Of a stretch of DNA of 64,000 nucleotides, positions 35,145 through 41,407 are shown one piece after another. A program made the translations under genes and the position numbers. The number at the start of each line of letters is the position of its first letter. The stretch's first letter is position 1. Source of the stretch: Streptomyces sp. NBC_01275 (GTDB lineage: Bacteria > Actinomycetota > Actinomycetes > Streptomycetales > Streptomycetaceae); assembly GCF_026340655.1 (NCBI RefSeq), contig NZ_JAPEOZ010000001.1:9982001-10046000 (forward strand), read 5' to 3'. The notes beneath the pieces are model-generated. The model was not told the DNA's origin. It searched no databases and saw only the letters and a list, made by a program, of their open reading frames with translations.

Positions 35145-35173
35145 TTGACACCCACCGCCCCGCGTGCTTGCAT
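35145..35173 (+). promoter_or_regulatory. Promoter of leader peptide 1 / sulfite-oxidase-like gene
   Basis: TTGACA and TTGCAT are separated by 17 bases. The predicted start is within a base or so of the leader ATG at 35180, so the leader could be translated from a leaderless message. Confidence 0.6.
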
Positions 35174-35179
35174 CCCGCC

Positions 35180-35263
35180 ATGCCGTTGTCGGAGCCTCTG
35201 ACCCGTCGCCGCGCCGTGGACCTCGTCCGGGTCGCCGCCGCCCTGTGTCGCACGACAGCCTGA
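35180..35263 (+). CDS. Leader peptide 1 (27 aa, Cys near the C-terminus)
   Basis: A 27-residue peptide with the core RRRAVDLVRVAAALCR, matching the actinobacterial leader pattern RR-h-V-D-L-x-R-V-x-x-A-x-C found before sulfur-assimilation genes. The Cys codon is near the stop. In mycobacteria, translation of similar Cys-containing leaders senses cysteine supply and controls the downstream operon. The stop is 42 bases before the sulfite-oxidase-like gene. A weak hairpin (TCCT-GACG-AGGA) includes that gene's GAGGA ribosome binding site. Too short for routine gene calling. Confidence 0.7.
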   Translation: MPLSEPLTRRRAVDLVRVAAALCRTTA

Positions 35264-35305
35264 TCACGCGCTTCCTGCCGTCACTTCTCCTGACGAGGAC
35301 CCGCC

Positions 35306-36583
35306 ATGCCTTCACCCACCCCCGCCGGTGACCCCCGCGAAACCGACTACGACCGCCGCAGACTGCGCCAGTGGCTCGCCGGTGAGGCCAGAGCCGACGG
35401 CGTCACCCGCCGCCGGCTGCTCACCCTGCTCGCCGCCACCACCGCCTCCGCGACCGCACTCGGCGCCGCGCGGCCCGCCCAGGCCACCGACGGGCCGATC
35501 GTCAAGCCCCTGCCGCCCGAGTGGTTCATCCCGCGCGGCACCAACGCCGAGACCCGCTGGGAGGCGTTACGCGGGACAGGCCGCCACGCCCCCAACGAGC
35601 TGTTCTTCGTGCGCAACCACACCGCCACCCCCGTCCTGGAGGCCGACGACTGGCGGCTGCGGCTGTGGGGGAGCGGGCTGCGCGGCGCCCCCGGCGAGGA
35701 CCGGCCGGTGGAGTTCGGGTACGACGATCTGCGCGCCCTGCCGGCCGTCACCCGTACCGCCTTCGTCGAGTGCGCCGGAAACGGCCGCTCCTACTACACG
35801 ACACAGCAGGGCGAGACGGTCGCCGGCACCTCGTGGACCCTGGGAGCGATCGGCGTCGCACGCTGGCGCGGGGTGCGCCTGGCCGACGTGCTGCGCAGGG
35901 CCGGGCTGTCCTCGTACGCCGTGGACGTGCAGCCGCGCGGCCTGGACGCCGAGTACGTCAGCGGCGGCGAGAGCCTGGGCCGGGTACGCCGTCCGCTGCC
36001 GCTGGCCAAGGCGCTGGACGACGTACTGCTCGCGTACGAGATGAACGGCGAGCGGCTTCCGTACGACCACGGGTATCCGGTGCGGGTGCTGGCGCCCTCC
36101 TGGGTGGGGATCGCGTCGATCAAGTGGGTCGGCGACATCGAGGTGTCCGCGCAGCCGCTCTACTCGCCCTGGAACACCACCTTCTACCGGATGTTCGGCG
36201 CCTCCTACCCGGAGGGCGGCAGCGCGCCGCTCACCCGGCAGACCACGAAGAGCGCCTTCGAGCTGGCGAGCGGCGCCACCTTCACGGCGGGCCGGCGGCA
36301 CGTACTGCACGGACGGTCGTGGTCGGGCGCGGGCGCCGTCGCCCGGGTCGACGTCAGCACCGACGGCGGGGCGAACTGGCGGCGCGCCCGGCTGCACGAC
36401 CGGCCCCGCGCCGGGACCTGGACCCGCTGGTCCCTCGGCTGGCGGCCCGACGCGCCCGGCGCCACCCATCTGCTGGCCCGGGCCACGGACACCGCCGGCC
36501 GTACGCAGCCGGACACCGCCGTGTCCAACACCCAGGGCTACCTGTTCGACGCGGTGGTGCGCCATCCCGTGAGCGTGGTGTGA
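35306..36583 (+). CDS. Sulfite-oxidase-like molybdopterin enzyme
   Basis: A 425-residue oxidoreductase with a twin-arginine-like export signal (TRRRLLTLLAATTASATALGAARPAQA, about residues 34-60) followed by the oxidoreductase molybdopterin-binding domain. The molybdenum-ligating cysteine lies in FVECAGNGRSYY (about residue 156). The C-terminal half is the Mo-co dimerisation domain (VDVSTDGGANWRRARL, then the WSLGWRP region). Exported relatives oxidise sulfite or reduce methionine sulfoxide. The upstream Cys leader supports a sulfur role such as detoxifying sulfite released by flavin monooxygenases. GAGGA precedes the ATG. Confidence 0.9.
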   Translation: MPSPTPAGDPRETDYDRRRLRQWLAGEARADGVTRRRLLTLLAATTASATALGAARPAQATDGPIVKPLPPEWFIPRGTNAETRWEALRGTGRHAPNELFFVRNHTATPVLEADDWRLRLWGSGLRGAPGEDRPVEFGYDDLRALPAVTRTAFVECAGNGRSYYTTQQGETVAGTSWTLGAIGVARWRGVRLADVLRRAGLSSYAVDVQPRGLDAEYVSGGESLGRVRRPLPLAKALDDVLLAYEMNGERLPYDHGYPVRVLAPSWVGIASIKWVGDIEVSAQPLYSPWNTTFYRMFGASYPEGGSAPLTRQTTKSAFELASGATFTAGRRHVLHGRSWSGAGAVARVDVSTDGGANWRRARLHDRPRAGTWTRWSLGWRPDAPGATHLLARATDTAGRTQPDTAVSNTQGYLFDAVVRHPVSVV

Positions 36584-36652
36584 CCGGCAAGCCGTCCCGG
36601 CCGGATCCGCCGCCCTCGCCCCGGTCGCCGTCTCACCCGTCGGGACGCTCGG

Positions 36653-36681
36653 TGGACGCACCTGCGCGCGTGTGCTTTGAT
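36653..36681 (+). promoter_or_regulatory. Promoter of candidate leader peptide 2
   Basis: TGGACG and TTTGAT are separated by 17 bases, and six bases (CCGGCC) separate the -10 from the leader ATG. The geometry equals that of leader 1 (-10, CCCGCC, ATG), again allowing a leaderless start. Confidence 0.5.
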
Positions 36682-36687
36682 CCGGCC

Positions 36688-36777
36688 ATGGAGACCACTG
36701 GCCAGGCACACACGGTGCTGCTCGACCCGTTCTGGGTGAGCCGCCGCGCCGACCAGTTCGACGAGATCTGTCGTTGA
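36688..36777 (+). CDS. Candidate leader peptide 2 (29 aa, ends Ile-Cys-Arg)
   Basis: A 29-residue frame ending FWVSRRADQFDEICR: the double Arg, Asp and a Cys next to the stop recall the leader family, but the VDLxRV core is not kept. Promoter geometry is identical to leader 1, and a strong hairpin lies between it and the next gene start at 36926. Probably a divergent member or a different Cys-sensing leader. Confidence 0.5.
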   Translation: METTGQAHTVLLDPFWVSRRADQFDEICR

Positions 36778-36848
36778 CCGCCGTGTAACGGCCCGCGTCT
36801 CGACCCTCTCTTCCCCGACCCGCTCTCGGCGCACTCCTCTGTTCTGTC

Positions 36849-36879
36849 GGCAATCGGCCGTTCCCGTACGGCCGTTGCC
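36849..36879 (+). promoter_or_regulatory. Attenuator-like hairpin after leader 2
   Basis: Two stacked stems, GGCAA with TTGCC and CGGCCGT with ACGGCCG, separated by one bulged T, close on a 6-base loop. It lies 71 bases after the leader stop and 46 bases before the downstream ATG, the position expected of an attenuator. Confidence 0.6.
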
Positions 36880-36925
36880 GCGCGCGCCGCCGCGTCCGGG
36901 TCCGCTGCCGCCGCGAAGGAATCCC

Positions 36926-38192
36926 ATGGCGCAGCCCACCGTCCTCCCCGTCATCGACATCTCCCGCTTCCGAGATCCCGGCACCGACCGCGACGCCTTT
37001 CTGGCCGAACTCCGCGCCGCCGCCCACGAAGTGGGGTTCTTCTACGTCACCGGACACGGCGTTCCCGCGTCCGTACGGGACGAGGCCCTGCACGCGGCCC
37101 GCGCCTTCTTCGCCCTTCCGGAACACGTCAGGTCCACGCGGGCGCCGTACCGGATCCCACCACCGGCGCACGCGCCGTGCCGATCCACCAGACCACCAGC
37201 TACGTCTACCGCGACACCGCGCACGCCGCCGCAGCCTTCGAACTCGCCGACCTCACCACGCACGCGTACACCCGGCTGTCGAACCCGACCACCGCCGTGG
37301 CCGAGGAGCGCATCACGGCCCTGGAGGGCGGCTCGGCGGCCGTCGCCGTGGCCAGCGGACAGGCCGCGACAGCCCTCGCCCTGCCCAACCTGGCCCGCGC
37401 CGGAGACCACGTCGTCGCCTCGTCGTCCCTCTACGGAGGCACCCGTACGCTCCTGGAGCACGCCTTCGCCGACTTCGGCATCGCGGTCACCTTCGTCGAC
37501 GACCCGGACGACCTGGGCGCCTGGTACTCGGCCGTACGTCCCGGCACCAAGGCGCTGTTCGGCGAGAGCATCGGCAACCCGCGCGGCAACGTCCGCGACA
37601 TCGAGGCGGTCGCCCGGATCGCGCACGAGGTCGGCGTCCCGCTCGTCGTCGACAACACCGTGCCGCGCTGTCCGTCATCACGGCCCCGACCGAATCCGAG
37701 GCCCGCGACAAACTGGCCCGCCTCACCGCGTTGCTGCCCCCGCAGGTCGCCCTGGCCGACCTCTCCTACTGGCTGGGCGGCTTCGACCTCAGCGACCACC
37801 CGCTGGACGGTCCGCTGCCCGAACTCCCCGTCTCCAACCAGTCGCACACCGCACAGCAGCAGATCTACGAGGACGCACGGCGAGACGACCTCACCATCCG
37901 CGACCTCGTCCAGCGGGTCGCGGGCGACGACCGCACCATCACCGGGACTCCGCGGCAGATCACCGACCACATCGAGGAGTGGTTCCACGGCCGCGCCGCC
38001 GACGGCTTCAACGTGGTCTTCCCGTATCTGCCCGGCACGCTGTCCGACGTCGCCGACCTGGTCGTGCCCGAGCTGCGCCGCCGAGGCCTCTTCCGCACCC
38101 ACTACACGGGCACCACCCTGCGCGACCACCTCGGCCTGCCGCGGCCGCCACGGCTCGGTCGAGCGCCGCTCGAGCGGGGCCGCGCGTGGTGA
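36926..38192 (+). pseudogene. Triple fusion remnant: 2OG oxygenase, MetY and flavin monooxygenase fragments
   Basis: Three gene pieces follow each other in three frames. 36926 to about 37120: the start of a 2-oxoglutarate/Fe(II) dioxygenase (VIDISRFRDPGTDRDAF, then FFYVTGHGVP), about 65 of about 330 residues. About 37120-37665: O-acetylhomoserine sulfhydrylase (TRQVHAGAVPDPTTGARAVP, YTRLSNPTT, ALEGGSAAVAVASGQAA), broken off at VVDNTVP before the PLP lysine. About 37665-38192: the C-terminal third of an NtaA/DszA-type flavin monooxygenase (TAPTESEARDKLARL to GTTLRDHLGL). Each junction cuts into a conserved domain, as if two long deletions had joined three neighbours. All three families fit sulfur scavenging. 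Confidence 0.88.
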
Positions 38193-38252
38193 CGAACCCG
38201 CCATGAGCCCGCCACGACCATGCCATGAGTCCGCCACGAACCCGCCATGAGC
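38192..38252. repeat. Imperfect 22-base direct repeats
   Basis: Two and a half copies of a unit like CCGCCACGAACCCGCCATGAG lie directly after the fusion remnant. No coding or structural role is apparent. Confidence 0.7.
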
Positions 38253-38286
38253 TCGTCACACACGAGCGGGAATGCACCTCGCGCGC

Positions 38287-38546
38287 ATGCCGGTCGCCCT
38301 GGGTATGACCATCGGCGCAGCGCTCGCTCTCCACAACCGGATCGACGGCACGGTGCAGCTCGCGCGGGAGGCTCACGAGGCCGGACTGCGCTCCGCCTGG
38401 TTCGGGCGGAGGAGACCGTCGCCGCCGAGGTGCGCCGGTACCGAGAGGCCGGGGCGACGGAGGTGGTGTTCACCGCGACGGACCTGGGCGGCGAGGCGGA
38501 CCGACACCGCACCTGGAAGCTGCTCGGAGAGCTGGCCAACGGCTGA
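38287..38546 (+). pseudogene. F420-type luciferase-like oxidoreductase with its middle deleted
   Basis: The N-terminal 40 residues (MPVALGMTIGAALALHNRID and on to EAHEAGLRSAWFG) and the C-terminal 47 residues (ETVAAEVRRYREAGATEVVF to WKLLGELANG) of a luciferase-like monooxygenase are kept. The roughly 200 residues between are missing and the two parts are in different frames. The join is near 38405. No active protein is expected. Confidence 0.85.
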
Positions 38547-38672
38547 CGCGCACCGGGACCGTGGCGGCGACGGTCGGCGCGGGCGGGCAGCCGTCGGTGG
38601 TGGTGGGCGACTGTCGATGGTGGTGGGCGGCCGTCGGTGCGGCCCTGGTGGATGCGCGTACATCTAATGTTC

Positions 38673-38703
38673 TTGACATCTTCCGGGCCCGACGACGTAG
38701 GTT
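38673..38703 (+). promoter_or_regulatory. Promoter of leader 3 / flavin monooxygenase pair
   Basis: TTGACA (38673-38678) and TAGGTT (38698-38703) are spaced by 19 bases, slightly long. Transcription would start about 25 bases before the leader ATG, leaving room for its GGAGG site. Confidence 0.5.
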
Positions 38704-38736
38704 GAAGCGATCAGTCCCGGACGAGTGGAGGCCCCG

Positions 38737-38853
38737 ATGCGCGCACATGACGCCGCACCGCACGGCGCCGGCCCGGGCACGCTGCTGATCATCCGGCGCC
38801 ATGTCGACTACTGCCGCACCGCCTCCGCCGTCTGTCCTTCCGCACGACCCTGA
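38737..38853 (+). CDS. Leader peptide 3 (38 aa, two Cys)
   Basis: A 38-residue peptide with the family core IRRHVDYCRTASAVC close to its end, giving two cysteines (positions 26 and 33). GGAGG lies six bases before the ATG. It is followed directly by a 7-bp GC hairpin and, 53 bases after its stop, by the flavin monooxygenase pair. The combination of leader, hairpin and sulfur genes fits cysteine-responsive attenuation. Confidence 0.75.
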   Translation: MRAHDAAPHGAGPGTLLIIRRHVDYCRTASAVCPSARP

Positions 38854-38858
38854 CCTCC

Positions 38859-38877
38859 GCCGGCCTGTCGGGCCGGC
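38859..38877 (+). promoter_or_regulatory. Attenuator-like hairpin after leader 3
   Basis: GCCGGCC-TGTCG-GGCCGGC is a perfect 7-bp GC stem with a 5-base loop, starting five bases after the leader stop. A ribosome stalled at the Cys codons would cover or free it. Confidence 0.65.
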
Positions 38878-38906
38878 CGTCTCGTTGTGCCCTCGGAAGG
38901 AACCCC

Positions 38907-40010
38907 ATGTCCGGCCCCGCCCTGCGGCTCGCCCTCGAACTCGACGGCGACGGCGCCCACCCCGCGGCCTGGCGCCGCGCCGCCCACTCGCCCGACCATC
39001 TGCTGACCCCGCGCCGGGTGGCCCGCGTCGCCGCCGCCGCCGAGAACGCCGGGTTCACCCTGCTCACCCTGGACGACGGCGCACTCCCGCCCGGCGCCAC
39101 GCCCGACGTGGTCGGCCGCATCGGCGCGGTGGAGCGGGCCGCCTTCCTCGCCGCGTCGACGAGCGTCATCGGCATCGCGCCGGTCGTCCCGGTCACCTAC
39201 GCCGAACCCTTCCACGTCTCCAGCCAGTTGGCGTCCCTGGACCACATCTCGATCGGGCGCTCCGGCTGGGTGGTGGGCGAGGAGGCCCGCCCCGAGGCGG
39301 CCCGTGCCTGGGGCCGCCCCCTCGTCGACGGCGCCGCCGCCCGCGCCCGCGAGTCCCGCGACGGCCTCGAGGTCGTCCGCGCCCTGTGGGACTCCTGGGA
39401 GGACGACGCCGTCATCCGCTCCGTGGCCACCAGCCGCTACCTCGACCGCGACCGGCTCCACTACGTCGACTTCACCGGCGACGCCTACGCCGTGAAGGGC
39501 CCGGCGATCGTGCCGCGACCGCCCCAGGGCCAGCTCGTCGTGCTCGGCCGGCCCGACCTCGTGCCCGCCGAACAGCTCGACGTCGCCCTCGTCCAGGGCC
39601 GCGACGTCACCGCGGTCGCCGCGGCCGCGGCCGCCGCCGGAACGCCGCGTGCCTTCGCCGAGATCGAGGTCGCCCTCGACACCGCGGCCGCCCCGGCCGA
39701 CGAACGCGTCGCCGACCTGGAGCGACACGCTCCCTGGAACGACCGGGGACGGCTGCGCCACATCGGCTCCGCCGCCGGACTCCTGGCCCTCCTCGCGGAG
39801 TTGAGAGGCGTCGTGGACGGAGTGCGCCTGCACCCGCTGGTGCTGGACGAGGACCTTCCGGAGCTGTCCCGGCTCGTCCTGCCGCACCTCTTCGAACAGC
39901 GCCACGCCGTCCGCCCACTGGCCGGCGCGTCCCTGCGCACCCACCTGGGCCTCGAGCGGCCCGCCAACCGCTACGCCGCCGCCCGCACGGCCGGGGAGGA
40001 GACCCGATGA
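38907..40010 (+). CDS. Luciferase-like flavin monooxygenase
   Basis: A 367-residue LLM-class oxidoreductase that should use reduced FMN and oxygen. The TIM-barrel start (RLALELDGDGAHPAAWRRAA), PVTYAEPFHVSSQLASLDHISIGRSGWVV (flavin-binding core) and the family-typical end HLFEQRHAVRPLAGASLRTHLGLERPANRY are visible. AAGGAA precedes the ATG. It overlaps the next monooxygenase by four bases. It lies behind a Cys leader and hairpin, so desulfonation or C-S cleavage of organosulfur compounds is the likely role. Confidence 0.9.
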   Translation: MSGPALRLALELDGDGAHPAAWRRAAHSPDHLLTPRRVARVAAAAENAGFTLLTLDDGALPPGATPDVVGRIGAVERAAFLAASTSVIGIAPVVPVTYAEPFHVSSQLASLDHISIGRSGWVVGEEARPEAARAWGRPLVDGAAARARESRDGLEVVRALWDSWEDDAVIRSVATSRYLDRDRLHYVDFTGDAYAVKGPAIVPRPPQGQLVVLGRPDLVPAEQLDVALVQGRDVTAVAAAAAAAGTPRAFAEIEVALDTAAAPADERVADLERHAPWNDRGRLRHIGSAAGLLALLAELRGVVDGVRLHPLVLDEDLPELSRLVLPHLFEQRHAVRPLAGASLRTHLGLERPANRYAAARTAGEETR

Positions 40011-41407
40011 CCCACACCGACCCCCTCGACGTCCCTCGCCCCGACGCCCAGCTCCACCTGGGCGTCTTCTTCCAGGGCGTCAACCACTGGACCATCTGGT
40101 CCGACCCGGCCAGCGGCTCCCAGATCGATCCCGCCAACTTCCGGCGCGTCGCCCAGACCGCCGAACGAGGCCTGTTCGACGCGTTCTTCCTGGGGGAGGG
40201 GCTGAGGCTGCGCGAGGTCGACGGGCGGATCCACGACCTCGACATCACCGGGCGGCCGGACGCCGTCACCCAGCTCGCCGCCCTGGCCGCCGTCACCGAC
40301 CGGATCGGCCTGGTCTCCACCTCCAACACCACCTTCAACGAACCCGCCGACCTCGCCCGCCGTCTCTCCGGCCTCGACCTGCTCTCCGAGGGCCGCGCCG
40401 GATGGAACGTGGTGACCACCGACAACGCCTGGACGGGCGCCAACTTCCGCCGCGGCGGTTACCTCGACCACGCCGACCGCTACCGGCGCGCCGAGGAGTT
40501 CCTCACCGTCGCCCGCGCGATCTGGGACGGCTGGGAGACCGGGGCCGTCTCCGGATCCCCGGGCGCCCCGGCCTGGGCGGCACCGGGCGCCGTACGCCAA
40601 GTCCGCCACCAGGGGCACCAGTTCGACGTCGACCTCGCGCCCACGCTGCCGCGCAGCGCCCAGGGTCACCCGGTGATCTTCCAGGCCGGGGACTCCGGCG
40701 AGGGCCGGGACTTCGCCGCCCGCAACGCCGACGTCGTCTTCTCCGCGCACGGCAACGACTACGACGACGCGCTCGCCTTCGCCGACGATCTCCGGCGCCG
40801 CCTGCGGGCCGTCGGCCGGCCCGACGACGACCTGCGCATCCTCCCCGGCACGGAGATCATCATCGGCGCCACGGAGGAGGAGGCGCAGGAGAAGAAGCGC
40901 TGGATCCGCCTCCAACAGGTCACTCCGGCAACCGCGTTGGGCATCGCAGGACTCCTGTGGGGCCTGGACCTCTCCGATCGCGACGCCGACGGTCCACTGC
41001 CCAAGGAGGACCCGGTCGTCGCCGAGAACGACGGCTCCTTCGGCGCCCGGCGTATCGCCGACTCGCGCAAGGTGGTCGCCGAGTGGCGGGAGAAGGCCGA
41101 GGCGCACGGGTGGTCGCTGCGCGAGACCGTCATCGCGCTCGGTCCCCAGCGTGGCCATGTCGGCACTCCGGCGGGACTGGCGGACAAGTTCGCCCACTTC
41201 GTCCGGCACGGCGCCGTCGACGGCTTCAACGTCACGCCGTACCTGATCCCCGACGGCCTCGACGACATCGTCGACCTGCTCGTCCCCGCACTGCAGGAAC
41301 GCGGGGTCTACCGCACCGAGTACACCGGTACGACGCTGCGCGAGCACCTGGGCCTGCGCGAACCCCTCACCCACCGCTCCACGACCGACCGGCGGGAGGC
41401 CGGCTGA
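40007..41407 (+). CDS. NtaA/SnaA/DszA-family flavin monooxygenase
   Basis: A 466-residue FMN-dependent monooxygenase of the nitrilotriacetate/dibenzothiophene-sulfone type. Features: LHLGVFFQGVNHWTIWSDP, SNTTFNEPADLARRLSGLDLLSEGRAGWNVVTTDN, GHPVIFQAGDSGEGRDFAARNADVVFS and the C-terminal EYTGTTLREHLGLREP. Relatives break C-N or C-S bonds with FMNH2 supplied by a separate reductase, which is not in the window. Its ATGA start is coupled to the preceding monooxygenase. It ends the sulfur-linked region. Confidence 0.92.
   Translation: MTHTDPLDVPRPDAQLHLGVFFQGVNHWTIWSDPASGSQIDPANFRRVAQTAERGLFDAFFLGEGLRLREVDGRIHDLDITGRPDAVTQLAALAAVTDRIGLVSTSNTTFNEPADLARRLSGLDLLSEGRAGWNVVTTDNAWTGANFRRGGYLDHADRYRRAEEFLTVARAIWDGWETGAVSGSPGAPAWAAPGAVRQVRHQGHQFDVDLAPTLPRSAQGHPVIFQAGDSGEGRDFAARNADVVFSAHGNDYDDALAFADDLRRRLRAVGRPDDDLRILPGTEIIIGATEEEAQEKKRWIRLQQVTPATALGIAGLLWGLDLSDRDADGPLPKEDPVVAENDGSFGARRIADSRKVVAEWREKAEAHGWSLRETVIALGPQRGHVGTPAGLADKFAHFVRHGAVDGFNVTPYLIPDGLDDIVDLLVPALQERGVYRTEYTGTTLREHLGLREPLTHRSTTDRREAG

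Follow-up and report, generated by a model that had tools for sequence, protein, structure and literature searches.

Three short ORFs and the genes behind them

Three short open reading frames (ORFs) with cysteine near their ends lie within 3.7 kb of the genome of Streptomyces sp. NBC_01275 (10.4 Mb), and are described here as putative leader peptides of cysteine-sensing switches. They were found in a stretch of 64,000 nt, referred to below as the window, in which all three occupy the plus strand with starts at 35180, 36688 and 38737; they are called leaders 1, 2 and 3, and their features are collected in Table 1. A sequence-only reading of the window had proposed Cys-containing leaders at these positions, and the ORFs are present, all three having a Cys close to the C-terminus. 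An Rfam search of the window at the gathering threshold returned no matches.

Table 1. Coordinates of the leaders, their RNA and promoter-like elements and the downstream genes in the window.
Feature	Position	Strand	Basis or detail
-10-like TTGCAT of leader 1	35168..35173	+	six bases 5' of ATG; small changes across 10 leader-1 loci
Leader 1, MPLSEPLTRRRAVDLVRVAAALCRTTA, stop included	35180..35263	+	sensing Cys codon TGT 35246-35248
Spacer from leader 1 to gene, shortened, 42 nt	35264..35305	+	locus comparison
Sulfite-oxidase/SoxC-like molybdopterin oxidoreductase	35306..36583	+	PF00174, PF03404
-10-like TTTGAT of leader 2	36676..36681	+	six bases 5' of ATG
Leader 2, METTGQAHTVLLDPFWVSRRADQFDEICR, stop included; PFWxSR type	36688..36777	+	Cys codon TGT 36769-36771
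Small hairpin GCCGT/ACGGC directly 3' of leader-2 stop	36780..36792	+	-6.5 kcal/mol, z -2.03
Strong hairpin between leader 2 and remnant gene	36849..36879	+	-20.9 kcal/mol, z -4.15
Remnant: 2OG-Fe(II) oxygenase N-terminal part	36928..37122	+	aligned to intact L131, L121 genes
Remnant: MetY middle part	37123..37663	+	PF01053, alignment
Remnant: NtaA/DmoA-type monooxygenase C-terminal part	37668..38192	+	alignment
Promoter-like TTGACA - 19 nt - TAGGTT 5' of leader 3	38673..38703	+	by eye
Leader 3, MRAHDAAPHGAGPGTLLIIRRHVDYCRTASAVCPSARP, stop included	38737..38853	+	sensing Cys codon TGT 38833-38835
Anti-Shine-Dalgarno CCTTCC, directly 3' of sensing Cys codon	38836..38841	+	exact in 15/20 orthologues
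Inner stem-loop of leader-3 structure	38859..38877	+	folding
Shine-Dalgarno GGAAGGA	38895..38901	+	pairs with the anti-Shine-Dalgarno in the predicted off-state
Two intact luciferase-like flavin monooxygenases	38907..41407 (38907-40010, 40007-41407)	+	PF00296

Leaders 1 and 3 belong, as judged by their sequences, to a type of Cys leader already known from actinobacteria. With 30.4 bits, leader 1 passes the cutoff of 27 set for the NCBIfam model NF042934; against the Ms5788A equivalog NF042933 it reaches 36.8 bits, below the cutoff of 45. Leader 3 is a near miss to NF042934, with 25.7 bits and an E-value of 6.4e-6 (25.2 bits in the genome scan). The core RRxVDLxRVxxAxC, which both had been said to keep, is altered in leader 3, where Y and T replace L and V. 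The genome as a whole contains 14 matches to NF042934 with E below 0.002, 11 of them above the cutoff, so that three leaders (one of them from another family) inside 3.7 kb represent a real cluster.

Leaders 1 and 3 resemble the mycobacterial leaders of the Ms5788A/Ms4527A type (NF042933, NF042936) and NF042934 in the RRxVDxxR..A.C core, in the Cys near the end, in the short distance to sulfur-type genes and, for leader 1, in a leaderless-type promoter. The title of Canestrari 2020 speaks of poly-cysteine ORFs. Compared with the Ms5788A/Ms4527A type, the window leaders have one sensing Cys or a Cys pair, the targets are a sulfite-oxidase-like gene and flavin monooxygenase genes, and leader 3 has its own promoter-like pair and Shine-Dalgarno (SD) sequence.

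The promoter geometry that the sequence-only reading had described for leaders 1 and 2, consisting of a -10-like TTGCAT or TTTGAT, six bases and the ATG, is borne out, with small changes in relatives. Leader 3 appears not to be of the leaderless type, to judge from a -35/-10-like pair and a GGAGG upstream (by eye); a consensus promoter scan of the leader region reported no sigma-70 site, the TTGACA/TAGGTT pair included.

The downstream genes had been called sulfite-oxidase-like, MetY-like and flavin monooxygenases, of which the first and the last can be retained and the MetY-like gene cannot (it is a fused remnant of three genes, described below). Against TIGR04555, the sulfite-oxidase-like product scores 196 bits, below the cutoff of 420. 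The two flavin monooxygenases score 147.8 and 383.5 bits against TIGR03860, below and above its cutoff of 279.7.

Both leaders of the known type recur upstream of the same gene in other genomes. The leader-1 target gene was found in 89 of 246 Streptomyces genomes, and 30 loci were fetched, 29 with readable upstream DNA; the leader-1 core precedes the orthologue in 10 of these 29, and L197 has part of the core. Five loci have instead a short ORF of another kind, with GCC or GCCR at its end. In these five loci (L207, L208, L210, L212 and L216), the Cys-ending leaders, such as MILSRRRTTAPRSRVLVLHGCC, may be a third leader type in the same position; one was run against NCBIfam, with no match. The leader-3 target gene gave 29 matches at E 1e-60 among the 246 genomes, and an RRHVDYCRTxSAxC leader lies upstream in 20 of the 29 loci (19 by script, L174 by eye); another classical Cys leader takes its place in four of the remaining nine.

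Base changes in the cores are concentrated at third codon positions, at 0.127 versus 0.032 and 0.008 for leader 1 (nine distinct sequences) and 0.162 versus 0.049 and 0.034 for leader 3 (19 distinct), so that third-position variation is three to four times first-position variation. GC-rich DNA commonly holds short ORFs, but position, sequence and target are conserved across genomes, and an upstream ORF with a Cys codon is kept before the same gene; the probability that these are chance ORFs is vanishingly small.

Predicted release of the Shine-Dalgarno sequence

The three ORFs are interpreted as leader peptides that would control sulfur-acquisition genes by cysteine-sensing translational attenuation, with a probability of roughly three in four; leaders 1 and 3 would be of the known type and leader 2 of another family, and leader 3 would be the sole intact switch here. 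In the proposed mechanism, scarce charged tRNA-Cys would slow the ribosome at the Cys codon, and the slowed ribosome would cover the next ~12 nt, which in leaders 2 and 3 are predicted to belong to an RNA structure hiding the SD of the next gene. Cysteine starvation would thereby open the SD, a step of which the SD release was modelled and the response to cysteine inferred.

Of the three, leader 3 alone has both its target genes and its predicted structure intact. Here UCCUUCC, whose first U is the third position of the sensing Cys codon, is predicted to pair with the SD GGAAGGA, and the pairing is extended by GCACGAC/GUUGUGC. The region 38830-38909 is predicted to fold at -37.5 kcal/mol (z -4.56), a stability matched by none of 200 shuffles. 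Among the 20 leader-3 orthologues, the start codon lies anywhere from 74 to 228 nt beyond the Cys codon, yet 15 have the exact CCTTCC immediately after that Cys codon. The Pro codon CCT, which is rare in the genes of the window (28 of 883), follows the sensing Cys in 16 of the 20.

In a masking model, the 12 nt after the Cys codon were blocked as by a stalled ribosome, and the outcome was compared with 40 shuffled sets. For leader 3 (n=20), mean SD openness rises from 0.18 to 0.38, a gain of 0.20 (shuffles: mean 0.01, maximum 0.11); for leader 2 (n=15), it rises from 0.25 to 0.40, a gain of 0.15 with a shuffle maximum of 0.08. In leaders 2 and 3 the gain is thus above that of every shuffled set; in leader 1 it is not.

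Several points weigh against this interpretation. Swapping the arms of the leader-3 pairing between genomes makes it only slightly weaker (permutation p 0.045), covariation is weak, and the orthologues are related, so the set means in the model are not independent. The leader-2 model used the 15 of 30 loci with a pattern-recognised SD and start and excluded the rest; in the window itself the leader-2 SD is already fairly open (0.42), and the 206-nt region is not unusually stable overall (z -1.15). Leader-2 cores have no third-position excess (0.059/0.042/0.050 in 14 distinct sequences), and their DNA is thus conserved without the usual sign of coding. For leader 1, the SD-release gain is 0.00 across the window and its relatives (9 of 10 sequences used), and the window region folds with a z of only -0.38. 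The spacer 3' of leader 1 is 81-97 nt shorter in the window than in L131, L193, L194 and L195, and the distance from leader to protein match is 137-192 nt in nine orthologue loci versus 42 nt in the window.

The GC stems that the sequence-only reading had placed after leaders 2 and 3 are found on folding (36849-36879, z -4.15; 38859-38877, z -2.56, with 5 of 200 shuffles as stable). Such strong hairpins 3' of both leaders could also serve transcription attenuation, through intrinsic or Rho-dependent termination in place of SD masking, as could the pyrimidine-rich stretches seen by eye after leader 2 in relatives; several amino-acid leaders of S. lividans are also described as transcription attenuators in a section of PMC8079986. 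However, a scan for a stem with a U-tract, which addresses the intrinsic type, found none between leaders and genes (the one site lies inside the remnant gene), and the SD-release signal of leaders 2 and 3 points away from termination, which is considered rather unlikely.

Translational attenuation has a precedent in M. smegmatis, where cysteine genes are stated to be so regulated in a passage of PMC13236596, citing Canestrari 2020. The amino-acid leaders of S. lividans TK24, as laid out in Table 4 of PMC8079986, are likewise short ORFs, several of them leaderless, before amino-acid genes; of the eight leaders, none is called cysteine-dependent in that part of the source. One of them, the metL leader, is filed under methionine in the same table and ends in the Cys-rich CMCRRMCAF. 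As a side observation, this published leader could be a cysteine leader and not a methionine one, going by that table entry.

The proposed local group of attenuation switches responding to cysteine finds support as to kind in the family match, positional conservation, sulfur-type targets, third-position variation (leaders 1 and 3) and, for leaders 2 and 3, the SD-release model. As a group it is incomplete here: leader 1 has a shortened spacer and no SD-release signal, and leader 2 precedes a gene remnant. The sequence-only reading had seen a real switch, mostly of a known kind and partly broken in this strain. It had overlooked that leader 2 represents, by its sequence, a separate leader family, the long form of which lies upstream of glnRII.

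Leader 2, its remnant operon and the PFWxSR family

The gene after leader 2 is not a MetY gene but a remnant in which three truncated genes have been fused through two deletions. Genome G586 (L131) is collinear with the window and contains leader 1, the oxidoreductase, leader 2, a 2OG-Fe(II) oxygenase, MetY, an ABC transporter and a monooxygenase. A deletion at 37122/37123 (864 bases in L131) joins the oxygenase to MetY, and a second, which corresponds to about 8.1 kb in L121 and lies near 37663/37668, joins MetY to the monooxygenase end; 37668-38154 is 86.9% identical to L121 17893-18379, and the intact L121 oxygenase gene has PF14226 and PF03171. Of 26 loci with a METT-like leader, window included, 6 have full-length 2OG and MetY genes behind it, which indicates that the leader often outlasts its operon. 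Many of the genomes with METT-like loci (L116-L138) keep the leader although the operon is missing or cut short. A hairpin like that directly after the leader-2 stop is seen by eye at the equivalent place in many relatives.

Farther downstream, 38272-38546 looks like a truncated, frame-broken luciferase-like monooxygenase remnant, the start of which resembles L116 2581-3450 by eye; a Pfam search with 38272-38420 found no match. Between the fused remnant and leader 3, 38190-38260 contains short repeat-like runs of the GCCATGAGCCCGCCACGA type (by eye).

Leader 2 belongs, on present sequence comparisons, to a family distinct from the classical Cys leaders and without an NCBIfam model. It matched no NCBIfam family at E up to 10 and no Pfam family, and no NCBIfam family was matched by six PFWxSR leaders (leader 2, the glnRII leader of the same genome and four more). 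Homology between the two families was considered, given that the R.H.D..RV register looks alike by eye, and was not detected (profile probability 0.4%). Leader 2 does share its anatomy with the Cys leaders, being a short leaderless-type ORF that ends in Cys before sulfur-type genes; its core, PFWxSR..FD..C, is its own.

Strong relatives of leader 2 occur in 8 of 150 Streptomyces genomes (E<1e-10), its own included. Weaker matches represent a longer leader, MASFQ..TGRxDLEPFWPSRQHHDFDRVCCRA, preceded by TTCAAT and six bases before the ATG; the copy in the genome under study is at G000:C1:2480416. An alignment of short and long forms (A1, 21 rows) was used to search further, and the family was detected in 337 of 392 Streptomyces genomes; across the order, 240 of 293 genomes have it, in 7 of 9 genera (mostly Streptomyces, with some genomes shared between the two sets). 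The 116 database proteins found with the long form are hypothetical, uncharacterized or nameless, including one from S. venezuelae (P0065).

Other PFWxSR leaders lie directly upstream of a sulfatase (L156), of a sulfatase-maturase (L155) and of carbonic-anhydrase genes (PF00484, three tested; loci such as L145, L146 and L161). Taken over the window and its relatives, leader targets include flavin monooxygenases, MetY, sulfatase and FGE-sulfatase.

The nine invariant columns among the 21 aligned sequences are more than codon sensing needs upstream of the Cys, and would suit an arrest peptide that senses something besides charged tRNA-Cys, such as a thiol compound, sulfide or a drug. The invariant end is nevertheless Cys, and wherever a neighbor can be named it is a sulfur-type gene, carbonic anhydrase or glnRII, although this argument is incomplete (L143, L149, L154 and L160, for example, have other or unnamed neighbors); an arrest peptide is thus quite unlikely. 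The 14 distinct leader-2 cores without third-position excess raise the further possibility that leader 2 is an RNA or DNA element conserved without translation. Its peptide, however, aligns with the glnRII leaders, in which third positions vary seven times as much as first positions, and the start codon and -10 spacing are kept in most relatives, making an untranslated element highly improbable.

GlnRII-family genes and sulfur loci

In the genome under study, the gene after the long-form leader encodes an OmpR-type winged helix-turn-helix (wHTH) protein (PF00486), in the order glnII-leader-wHTH. Eighty named loci were chosen by exact leader DNA; among the matches listed, a wHTH gene lies downstream of the long form in 72 of 72 loci and glnII upstream in 61 of the 63 with enough sequence. 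A portion of PMC3087709 places glnRII next to glnII and prints a glnRII primer. The 25-nt 3' part of this primer has two mismatches in 5 of the 80 named loci and more elsewhere, and the exact 30-nt S. venezuelae primer gave no match in the genome contigs. The wHTH gene is identified as glnRII because it adjoins glnII as reported there and matches the primer in part. In five loci from other genera within the family, leader and glnRII remain together, and glnII is absent from the 10-12 kb fetched.

In the masking model, the glnRII leaders show an SD openness of 0.50 rising to 0.54, a gain of 0.04 with a shuffle maximum of 0.05 (35 of 36 sequences). A four-segment GCGCG switch in this leader was considered and rejected: the segments are conserved, two-sided change occurs in just 6 of 44 predicted pairs, and the SD gain is at the edge of the shuffles.

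GlnRII-like genes also occur away from glnII. Fifty-five of the 392 genomes have no A1 match, and of these, 20 were checked for a GlnRII-like protein (E below 1e-26), which was present in nine. The neighbors in eight of the nine are a sulfatase (two; Pfam on one), TauD (two), TauE, an FMN reductase and cysDN/sulfonate-transport-type genes (two; by likeness). The ninth has no sulfur neighbor in view but a classical Cys leader, as does one of the eight.

A GlnRII-family protein was found in 138 of 150 genomes, with two copies in 14, and the second copy was examined in 13 (that of G071 was left out). All 13 adjoin an SfnB/DszC-like gene (one by NCBIfam, 12 by likeness of ends); the one run against NCBIfam scores 243 bits for DszC and 217 for SfnB, both below cutoff. 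Eleven of the 13 are near sulfonate-type ABC, TauD or sulfite-oxidase genes (L405 and L412 by weak ABC likeness), and the substrate-binding protein of L406 is of the SsuA family, above cutoff. A classical RRHVD Cys leader precedes 12 of the 13. In total, 21 of 22 GlnRII-like genes away from glnII have sulfur-type neighbors and 14 of 22 have a classical Cys leader.

GlnRII, traditionally classed as a nitrogen regulator, is therefore a candidate sulfur/cysteine regulator on these genomic associations. The evidence leans towards GlnRII-family proteins being regulators of cysteine or sulfur status, not nitrogen. Attenuation at cysteine codons would govern their synthesis by means of two leader families unrelated to each other, PFWxSR on the glnII-adjacent copy and classical RRHVD on the copies in sulfonate/taurine loci. 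An S. venezuelae study found no nitrogen role for GlnRII in the part of PMC3087709 concerned, and glnRII mutants have been reported for both S. venezuelae and S. coelicolor. Other published work speaks against a sulfur role: GlnRII is reported in a section of PMC10704036 to bind the glnA, glnII and amtB promoters and possibly to promote differentiation under nitrogen limitation, and is named the exclusive activator of glnII in a section of PMC2267785. Several of the neighbors, moreover, are named by likeness alone, and the copies near sulfur genes are mostly ~50-63% identical to the genome's own GlnRII over the matched part, which makes them relatives with orthology unproven. A literature search, which was not exhaustive and drew on parts of its sources, turned up neither a role in sulfur metabolism nor a leader for GlnRII.

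The classical leaders before GlnRII-like genes also bear on codon choice at the sensing Cys. A rule that this codon is always UGU was rejected, given that TGC stands at that place in 14 of 14 of them; UGU is a bias of some leader groups and not a rule. TGT is used in all 67 distinct glnRII leaders, in 46 of the 47 other PFW leaders, in all 20 leader-3 orthologues and in all 16 leaders of the genome under study that have the core Cys (one of the 17 listed lacks it). Leader-3 orthologues use TGC for their other Cys in 19 of 20 cases, and TGT makes up 14 of 88 Cys codons in the genes of the window. The strong preference for this rare codon is seen in the leaders of L042, L046 and L113 and their orthologues.

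Cysteine attenuation by leaders is known from mycobacteria; in Streptomyces it appears to form a wide network that draws on two or more leader families between which no relationship is detectable. Leader 2 opens a leader family that has no model and, if the inferred functional steps hold, may point to a new role for GlnRII.

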